Below are positions 1,230-2,657 of a stretch of 22,506 bases of DNA, in pieces; the stretch's first letter is position 1; every line of letters begins with the position of its first letter. Below the pieces are notes generated by a model that saw only the letters and a program-made list of their open reading frames with translations, had not been told where the DNA came from and ran no database searches. A program made the translations under genes and the position numbers. This stretch comes from a virus, in IMG/VR virus record IMGVR_UViG_3300042519_001196, positions 1-22,506 of that record. One strand, written 5' to 3'.

Positions 1230-1425
1230 GTACGCCCTCCTATACAGTCGGGCGTCCGCTGTGTTTTAGACACTATCTTCCTTTCCCTCTTTAGTACCAT
1301 GTGTACTTACAGGGGGGTAGGACAATGTGTGCCGGGGTATATACTACCTCTCCATCCCAACCCCCTACAGAATATCCCTAGTCAAACCACTTCTCCCGTC
1401 GGAGAACTCATACCCATGCAGGTAA

Positions 1426-1445
1426 TGATATACTTGCGGTGGAGG
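1426..1445 (+). promoter_or_regulatory. Promoter-RBS module before the Tad2-like operon
   Basis: TGATATACT is an extended -10 box (TGn + TATACT at 1429-1434), followed by TGCGGTGGAGG, which contains the ribosome binding site. The predicted transcript start lies only a few bases before GGTGGAGG, giving a 5' leader of about 10-15 nt. The same arrangement occurs before 4391 and 5527. Confidence 0.65.
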
Positions 1446-1452
1446 TATGAAT

Positions 1453-1656
1453 ATGACAGGCATTGAAGCGTTGGTTGCGATACGTGACGGTAAGCACATT
1501 CGTCGTGTGGATTGGAAGTCTGGTGATTACATTAGGATGAACCGTCAAACAAAGAAGATTTCATACGTGCGGGGTACAACTATTTCGATACTGATTGTTG
1601 CTGATCACTTCTTGCATGATGACTGGGAAGCCATTGATGCTAAGGATGGTGAGTGA
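1453..1656 (+). CDS. Small Tad2/DUF2829-like protein (67 aa)
   Basis: The protein shows both ends of the short DUF2829 pattern (also called Tad2-like): a helix IEALVAIRDGKHIRRVDW (residues 3-21), in the style of ALxxLxxGKxVxRxxW, and a C-terminal ILIVADHFLHDDWEAI (46-61), in the style of xxDxxxxDWE. Family members are small phage and prophage proteins; characterised Tad2 proteins bind and sequester the signal nucleotide of Thoeris immunity. Whether this divergent copy binds a nucleotide is unknown. I chose ATG at 1453 because GGAGG at 1441-1445 is 7 bases upstream; an ATG at 1447 would be only one base away from it. It is the first gene of an overlapping operon and is followed by two proteins with the same pattern. 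Confidence 0.65.
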   Translation: MTGIEALVAIRDGKHIRRVDWKSGDYIRMNRQTKKISYVRGTTISILIVADHFLHDDWEAIDAKDGE

Positions 1657-2063
1657 TGGACGGTAGGCGTAAGTTGACTCCTGAGCAGGTTATGTTGGTA
1701 AGGCAGCGGGTGGCAGAGGGTGTGAAGCAGGATTCTATTGCTAGGGAGTTTGGTATTAGTGCACAGCACGTCTCTAGAATCAAACACAATCAACGACACG
1801 CTGCATGTGTAAATCAGACTGCTGGTAGGGCGTTGGACTGGTTACTTGCGGGCGGGGCTGTAAGACGTAGTTGTTGGCTAGATATTGAGTACATGAGATA
1901 TTCACGCATGGCGTTCCAGCTCTGGATTGATAGCGAGTGCAGCTTGCTTGAGGCGTTTGAGATCAGTGGTTACGACATGACTGTAAACGACTGGATACTC
2001 GGTGTGTATAACAAAGCGGATGGCACTGTTACATGGCCTAAAGGATGCGAGGTAGTGGAATGA
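1656..2063 (+). CDS. HTH protein fused to a Tad2/DUF2829-like domain (135 aa)
   Basis: Residues 7-47 form a helix-turn-helix of the type in recombinases and small phage regulators (LTPEQVMLVRQRVAEG, then IAREFGISAQHVSRIKHNQR). Residues 57-117 repeat the neighbours' pattern: AGRALDWLLAGGAVRRSCW at the start and GYDMTVNDWILGV at the end. It therefore reads as a DNA-binding domain joined to a Tad2-like domain. Inference: it could regulate the operon in response to a nucleotide ligand, or simply be a DNA-binding phage protein. The ATG at 1656 shares one base with the preceding TGA (TGATG); a GTG at 1653 is possible. Its stop overlaps the next gene by ATGA. Confidence 0.65.
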   Translation: MDGRRKLTPEQVMLVRQRVAEGVKQDSIAREFGISAQHVSRIKHNQRHAACVNQTAGRALDWLLAGGAVRRSCWLDIEYMRYSRMAFQLWIDSECSLLEAFEISGYDMTVNDWILGVYNKADGTVTWPKGCEVVE

Positions 2064-2320
2064 CGTTTGCTGAAGTACTACTTGCGTTTATGGAAGGATT
2101 ACCTATAACTCGCAAGGCATGGATAGATCAAGACGAGAACAAAATTGTCTACTACGATTTTCATACAAAGACATTTGTAGAAAGACGTACGGCTGAAACG
2201 TGGGAACTACAGTGTAAGTTCACTTGCTTCACGTATGAGGATATGGCTGCAACTGACTGGGAAGTATGTGAATGGGACGAGATAGATGAGAAAATACATA
2301 GTACATCCACCTCTGAGTGA
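2060..2320 (+). CDS. Small Tad2/DUF2829-like protein (86 aa)
   Basis: Residues 1-21, MTFAEVLLAFMEGLPITRKAW, and residues 57-68, FTYEDMAATDWEV, match the two ends of the DUF2829/Tad2 pattern better than either neighbour. Between them is a strand-rich stretch with KIVYYDFHTKTFVERR. An acidic tail (EWDEIDEK) follows. The ATG overlaps the upstream stop (ATGA, 2060-2063) and GAGGT lies 6 bases upstream; an in-frame ATG at 2045 is less likely. By analogy with Tad2 it may act inside the cell as a small-molecule-binding anti-defence protein; this is inference from a short motif only. Confidence 0.65.
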   Translation: MTFAEVLLAFMEGLPITRKAWIDQDENKIVYYDFHTKTFVERRTAETWELQCKFTCFTYEDMAATDWEVCEWDEIDEKIHSTSTSE

Positions 2321-2549
2321 CATTAATAGTGATGCACTGTATGACGCAGTCTCACAGGTGTCGCAGTATTTTATGCTCAACCCAAATGCTCCATACGTTG
2401 AATTGACTTCAGATACTGACGGGGTTGTAGAGGTTATTGGAAGGATTAATAATCCAGCATTGGTTGGCACGATTGACATTGTTCACAATGCTATCTATCA
2501 ACACGAACGCAAAAACACTGTACGTACAGTGCAGATAAAAGACAGATAA
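2286..2549 (+). CDS. Small protein of unknown function (87 aa)
   Basis: This 87-residue protein overlaps the previous gene by 35 bases, in another frame, and ends the operon. It begins MRKYIVHPPLSDINSDALYDAV and has a likely beta segment (YVELTSDTDGVVEVIGRI). It lacks the ALxxLxxGK and DWE features of the three genes before it, so I do not place it in that family. Its last codons contain a perfect 16-bp palindrome. No function assigned. Confidence 0.6.
   Translation: MRKYIVHPPLSDINSDALYDAVSQVSQYFMLNPNAPYVELTSDTDGVVEVIGRINNPALVGTIDIVHNAIYQHERKNTVRTVQIKDR
2516..2531. promoter_or_regulatory. Perfect 16-bp palindrome, possible operator
   Basis: CACTGTAC/GTACAGTG is fully palindromic with no spacer, which suits a site for a dimeric DNA-binding protein better than an RNA hairpin. 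It lies inside the end of the 87-aa gene, about 20 bases before a TATATT box (2552-2557). A regulator such as the HTH-fusion protein of this operon could bind it; this is speculative. Confidence 0.45.
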
Positions 2550-2626
2550 GGTATATTGCACACGGAATGAATAGAAAGGCTTCAGCGAAACCCGAACCTT
2601 CCCGACAAACCAAACTCTGCAAACAG

Positions 2627-2657
2627 AAAGACCAGCCGGCCACGCTGGTCTTTTTTT
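2627..2657 (+). terminator. Rho-independent terminator
   Basis: AAAGACCAGC (2627-2636), loop CGGCCAC and GCTGGTCTTT (2644-2653) form a perfect 10-bp stem running into seven Ts. It closes the rightward operon that ends at 2549, or a short transcript from a TATATT box at 2552. Confidence 0.9.

Follow-up and report, generated by a model that had tools for sequence, protein, structure and literature searches.

A gene run in an uncultivated phage

The whole stretch of DNA analysed here (the window) is a linear virus record of 22.5 kb, whose genes we take to encode a terminase, portal, capsid, ThyX, dUTPase, SSB and cytosine methylase, most of them named by reading their sequences. The capsid and terminase show only distant similarity to those of cultured phages, and scans of bacterial genome contigs returned no match to a host or prophage counterpart. 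An earlier note on this DNA had placed three reading frames of 67, 135 and 86 aa at 1447-2320, and these frames proved correct. All three lie on the plus strand. ORF1 (1453-1656, 67 aa) encodes a stand-alone protein with a Tad2 fold; the length is that from the ATG at 1453, an alternative start at 1447 would give 69 aa, and orthologues occur in 6 contigs. ORF2 (1656-2063, 135 aa), which we propose to be the regulator of the operon, is a fusion of an N-terminal, three-helix helix-turn-helix (HTH; residues 1-48, 1656-1799) with a Tad2-fold domain (residues 52-118, 1809-2009). ORF3 (2060-2320, 86 aa) is again a stand-alone Tad2-fold protein, with relatives of 60-75% identity in the gene arrays of other phages described below.

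The run ends with ORF4 (2286-2549, plus strand, 87 aa), which has no assigned function and is only 49% identical between the window and the related contig L001, though the backbone genes of L001 are mostly 90-100% identical. Behind it, a strong hairpin resembling an intrinsic terminator (2625-2655, plus strand), with 12 pairs and then a T run, ends the operon. A search for RNA families found none within the window. The genes look real, since most dN/dS values between orthologues fall between 0.06 and 0.5.

Three Tad2 folds, one joined to an HTH

These genes had been read as three consecutive Tad2/DUF2829-like proteins, one with an N-terminal HTH, sharing an ALxxL...RxxW helix near the N terminus and a DW segment at the C terminus around differing middles; Pfam, a hidden Markov model (HMM), AlphaFold models and profiles all support this reading. 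Against the Pfam family PF11195 (Tad2-like; curated cut-off 25 bits), ORF1 scores 22.9 bits over profile positions 1-38 and ORF3 23.2 bits over positions 1-72 of 73, both just below the cut-off; ORF2 reaches about 10 bits (at 1821-1997) and its orthologues 18.3-20.9 bits with nearly the whole profile covered. Other array members pass the cut-off in 13 of 26 records. The window's trio lies under it, and we therefore call these proteins Tad2-fold relatives and not Tad2. Run over all 263 of the window's frames, an HMM built from array members matched ORF1, ORF2 and ORF3 alone, and an HMM from which the window's own phage lineage had been excluded still matched all three (E values of 1e-23, 6e-12 and 8e-8).

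The comparison with Tad2 structures that the earlier note had suggested gives matches for the ORF1 and ORF2 models, and ORF3 matches by profile. The AlphaFold (AF2) model of ORF1 (pLDDT 85) is assigned to solved Tad2 by Foldseek with a probability of 1.00 and overlays with Tad2 structures at Z 10.3, with 64 residues aligned at an rmsd of 1.6; the best unrelated fold reaches Z 6.0. The AlphaFold model of ORF2 (pLDDT 84.6) divides into the three-helix HTH and a Tad2 fold, residues 52-118 matching Tad2 structures at Z 8.0-8.6 and rmsd 2.0-2.1 (best Z 8.6, rmsd 2.1 over 65 residues). Tad2 entries fill the top ranks in the structural comparison both of ORF1 and of this part of ORF2. When the ORF2 model was ranked by Foldseek, HTH and regulator chains came first, with no Tad2 in the top 50, and Tad2 emerged at a second look. 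The HTH itself scores 27.3 bits against CENP-B_N, above the cut-off, and residues 1-48 of the model match the DNA-binding domain of GcrA (Z 8.0, rmsd 1.5, 48 residues). For the ORF3 group, searching profile A9 against the whole PDB gave seven matches, all of them Tad2/AcrIIA7, with E values from 2.7e-7 to 7e-5. A Tad2 fold is thus well supported for ORF1 and the C-terminal half of ORF2, by model, and for ORF3, by profile.

Two further candidates were rejected as relatives. T4-type RIIB is the top viral Foldseek match of the ORF2 model, but the structural match has an rmsd of 17.7, and Pfam finds in T4 RIIB the HTH only and no Tad2-like match. Phage T4 rIIB (L060, 469-1404) does carry this HTH at its N terminus, as HTH_7 at 23.6 bits, just under the cut-off. 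Matches of profile A5 to cyanovirin are confined to a repeated stretch, have an i-Evalue of about 2 and were taken as chance.

Arrays of Tad2-like genes in related phages

Related loci and contigs were fetched (L-numbers), and genes were counted in a single representative stretch from every one of 41 viral contigs. Two to six Tad2-like genes lie close together in 38 of the 41, and 32 carry exactly one member fused to an HTH of class 1, that of the window, or class 2, the second fused class in related phages; none carries two. Because these proteins served as queries in fetching the contigs, the counts are not population frequencies. The clustered trio with its HTH fusion can accordingly be extended beyond the window, related phages carrying arrays of the same kind, mostly with one HTH-fused member. 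A third HTH class was found once (L043, 8097-8657), where a Tad2-like domain lies behind an N-terminal part whose HTH resembles that of small terminase subunits, and no class 1 or 2 fusion was present in the stretches examined of six arrays (L007, L033, L041, L042, L080 and L082).

Canonical Tad2 genes present a different picture. Across 400 records of cultured phages, a canonical Tad2 query found 410 places, almost always a single one in each record, and no neighbouring Tad2 copy turned up in 12 canonical regions inspected together with 1 kb flanks. With three fusion proteins as tblastn queries, no full-length HTH-Tad2 fusion was matched in cultured phages, a negative that weighs little because the fusion proteins diverge fast.

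Exchange of domain types and the form of the junctions

Clustering of 79 domains gave 13 types and 12 singletons, ORF1 belonging to type A, the ORF2 domain to type D and ORF3 to type E. The same type may occur free in one phage and fused in another. Type D carries an HTH in the window, L001, L003, L010 and L011 and stands alone in L034; type B carries one in L004, L005, L014-L019 and L029 and stands alone in L003, where it lies directly behind an HTH-type D fusion; and type C stands alone in some arrays, is joined to another HTH in L034, L035 and L039, and is joined to the HTH-bearing N-terminal part in L043. Domain types and their order change while many neighbouring genes are 80-99% identical, and the terminase lineage of the window (76-99% identity) shows this turnover against a nearly constant background. 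Between L005 and the window, for instance, SSB and terminase are 99% identical and the HTH protein 30%; L005 is without ORF3, and nothing in it detectably matches the Tad2 domain of ORF2; between L010 and the window, identity is 99% for SSB, 73% for the HTH part and 45% for the Tad2 domain. Among the class-2 phages, L061, L066 and L074 carry an additional Tad2-like gene ahead of the HTH gene, a case of cassette gain, and the same site is vacant in L063, L065 and L067. These sequence comparisons lend good support to the view that Tad2-fold cassettes have been shuffled between phages.

The genes of the arrays also meet in a recurrent form. An ATGA end leads into an open frame in 43 of 71 array genes. 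In the window, the ORF2/ORF3 junction is an overlap of this kind (2060-2063, plus strand), preceded by GAGGTAGTGGA, the codons of the terminal EVVE of ORF2, which can act as a ribosome-binding site ahead of ORF3. More generally, the codons of the terminal DWEVVE, TGGGAGGTAGTGGAATGA, hold a ribosome-binding site (GGGAGG), and some of the C-terminal conservation noted earlier may therefore stem from translation of the gene that follows. Among 27 coupled cases, 24 use GAG for the Glu of the terminal DWE, vs 63 of 210 in window genes, the only background used; since the array sequences are also related, the p value of 4e-9 is indicative.

Conserved elements upstream of ORF1

The region ahead of the operon contains several conserved elements, beginning with a perfect inverted repeat, AGTAC-N5-GTACT (1293-1307), which we regard as a candidate operator. 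It is the window's sole perfect copy, is perfect in five of seven orthologous loci, and is degenerate in L004 and L005, whose HTH-fused gene differs. A leader element of 32 nt, GGGGGGTAGGACNATGTGTGCCGGGGTATATA (1312-1343, plus strand), follows, with an exact match in six of seven orthologous contigs. This element is identical across the six orthologous phages despite differing coding sequence nearby, and could be a promoter of an unfamiliar type or a structured leader. Finally, TGATATACTTGCG (1426-1438, plus strand) is kept in all seven orthologous loci and lies 14 nt ahead of the ORF1 ATG at 1453, directly before the ORF1 ribosome-binding site. It resembles an extended -10 promoter element (TGnTATAAT-like), an assignment made by eye because a scan for the sigma-70 consensus gave no match there, and it is overlapped by an imperfect palindrome, GCAGGTA-N6-TACTTGC (1420-1439).

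A palindrome at 2516-2531 had been put forward as a possible target of the HTH protein. The palindrome exists (CACTGTACGTACAGTG, perfect in the window), but it is a poor operator candidate, lying inside ORF4 and carrying one mismatch in L001; judged by sequence, the conserved region just upstream of ORF1 is probably the better candidate. The minus strand of the palindrome scans as a terminator-like hairpin. Also ahead of the operon, the intergenic sequence TTCGCTAAAGC occurs at 1134-1144 and 1211-1221 and again upstream in L001, L004 and L005, and has the appearance of a small dispersed repeat or a hairpin.

Class-2 phages are arranged differently. Their array lies directly behind another gene with no visible promoter of its own, which fits poorly with simple autorepression at the start of an operon, and an alignment of the upstream regions of class-2 loci gave no common operator. 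Together with the arrays in which no fusion is visible, this arrangement calls for caution about the mechanism of control.

Loss of the canonical pocket motifs

Tad2 family proteins bind immune signal nucleotides of Thoeris systems, and the earlier note had suggested that ORF1, ORF2 and ORF3 could likewise bind different ligands. According to a review (PMC12043709), the ligand pocket of Tad2 lies at the β1-β2, β3-β4 and β4-α3 loops. Two motifs, which we place in these loops by reading of alignments, distinguish canonical from array domains: WNG, in loop β1-β2, is present in 16 of 17 canonical domains, and SQxD, in loop β4-α3, in 13 of 17, while none of the 42 array domains, the window's three included, has either motif. 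The 17 canonical domains include the solved ones, and the set leans towards ModTad2 because ModTad2 was the query. The scaffold, by comparison, is kept in the array domains, with RxxW in 33 of 42 and DW in 39 of 42. A ligand of the gcADPR or His-ADPR type should therefore not be assumed, and the case for Thoeris-type signals is weakened.

This result bears most directly on the possibility that the array proteins are true nucleotide sponges for different immune signals (gcADPR isomers, His-ADPR or cyclic dinucleotides), while ORF2 would repress until such a signal releases it. This is in essence the reading of the earlier note. The fold is the same as that of SPO1 Tad2, ModTad2 and HgmTad2, and different Tad2 proteins do bind different signals (PMC12043709, PMC13299392). 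However, in addition to the loss of both motifs, the array domains are mostly shorter, and ORF1 lacks a long insertion which, according to the review, is linked with the binding of cyclic dinucleotides (PMC12043709). We consider the sponge reading unlikely.

A proposed variable operon under a single HTH-fused member

We propose instead, with about even confidence, that the run belongs to a hypervariable accessory operon, probably with a counter-defence role, of re-tooled Tad2-fold binders controlled by a single HTH-fused member, in this uncultivated tailed phage. The genes would be exchangeable cassettes, each of which retains the scaffold, namely the N-terminal helix, RxxW and the C-terminal DW strand, and in which the loops and the middle that form the pocket in canonical Tad2 have been replaced. 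With these pocket-forming loops replaced, each member would probably bind a target of its own, most likely a host-derived small molecule or a component of host defence; it is the fold that suggests a counter-defence role. The GGGAGG-carrying DWEVVE codons and the ATGA would couple the translation of neighbouring genes, and the junctions would also provide short stretches of homology through which one cassette could replace another. The HTH-fused member, as a rule one per cluster, may act as the transcriptional autoregulator of the cluster, its Tad2 domain serving for multimerisation and possibly for sensing of a ligand.

A bolder form of this proposal, which we regard as doubtful, is that phages keep an evolving library of binders on one scaffold, with changing Tad2-fold pockets swapped at the stop/start junctions, to track the immune signals of their hosts, and that the one HTH-fused member in control senses the same class of ligand.

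The array could also be a regulatory module with no anti-defence role, in which the free members join the HTH-fused member in mixed multimers and adjust how it binds DNA, the Tad2 fold serving solely as an assembly domain. Such mixed assembly is conceivable because canonical Tad2 is a homotetramer (PMC12043709), and the occurrence in the 32 contigs of a single HTH-fused member together with several free ones is in keeping with it, as is the better conservation of the HTH part relative to the Tad2 part. The free members are nevertheless of many unrelated types with very different loops, which would be unexpected of subunits that serve one partner, and some arrays are without an HTH-fused member in the stretch examined; we hold this reading to be improbable. 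That the genes are mobile or decaying, without a function for the phage and kept only through easy recombination, is very unlikely, for although cassette turnover between close relatives is high, the frames are open across arrays, most dN/dS values lie well below 1 and the leader elements are conserved.

Relation to known systems

If the variable operon that we favour does consist of members binding different host signals, such clusters would be a source of unfamiliar immune-signal binders and could lead to bacterial immune messengers that have yet to be described, and shuffling on near-identical backgrounds would provide a natural comparison of pocket variants. To our knowledge, the HTH-Tad2 fusions would be the first case in which a domain of the immune-signal type is joined to a DNA-binding part. 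The Tad2 fold as a family is known already, as is the concept of anti-defence regulators fused to an HTH. The earlier note knew of no description of a triplet with a DNA-binding fusion, and we likewise found no Tad2 cluster and no HTH-Tad2 fusion described in the open-access literature searched.

The closest family is Tad2/DUF2829 itself (PF11195; SPO1 Tad2, ModTad2, SptTad2 and HgmTad2, the last being AcrIIA7). ORF1 and the C-terminal half of ORF2 share its fold and the ORF3 group its profile homology, along with the conserved RxxW and terminal DW, but the window proteins fall under the Pfam cut-off, are without WNG and SQxD and are clustered, whereas canonical genes are nearly always single. 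For the HTH-fused member, AcrIIA15 may serve as the nearest working model, being an HTH autorepressor joined to a defence inhibitor and so a precedent for an HTH-fused counter-defence autoregulator (PMC10901769). Like ORF2, it is a small phage protein with an N-terminal HTH and a second domain, from an operon of small accessory genes (PMC10901769). The second domain differs, being a Cas9 inhibitor in AcrIIA15 and a Tad2 fold in ORF2, which has a candidate operator only. We group the Aca-controlled acr operons with AcrIIA15 as a comparable system.

Tad2 domains have been joined to further domains elsewhere. Pasteurella phage Pm86 ORF47 (L050, 707-1264) combines Gp49_66 with Tad2, and gp19 of Ruminococcus phage phiRg507T2_3 holds two Tad2-type domains in one protein; in contrast to the arrays, these fusions pair a canonical Tad2 domain with something other than an HTH, and neither gene was found to lie in a cluster. 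Two Tad2 domains also share one protein in L040 (2653-3180, minus strand), where the second is canonical, with WNGK and SQAD.
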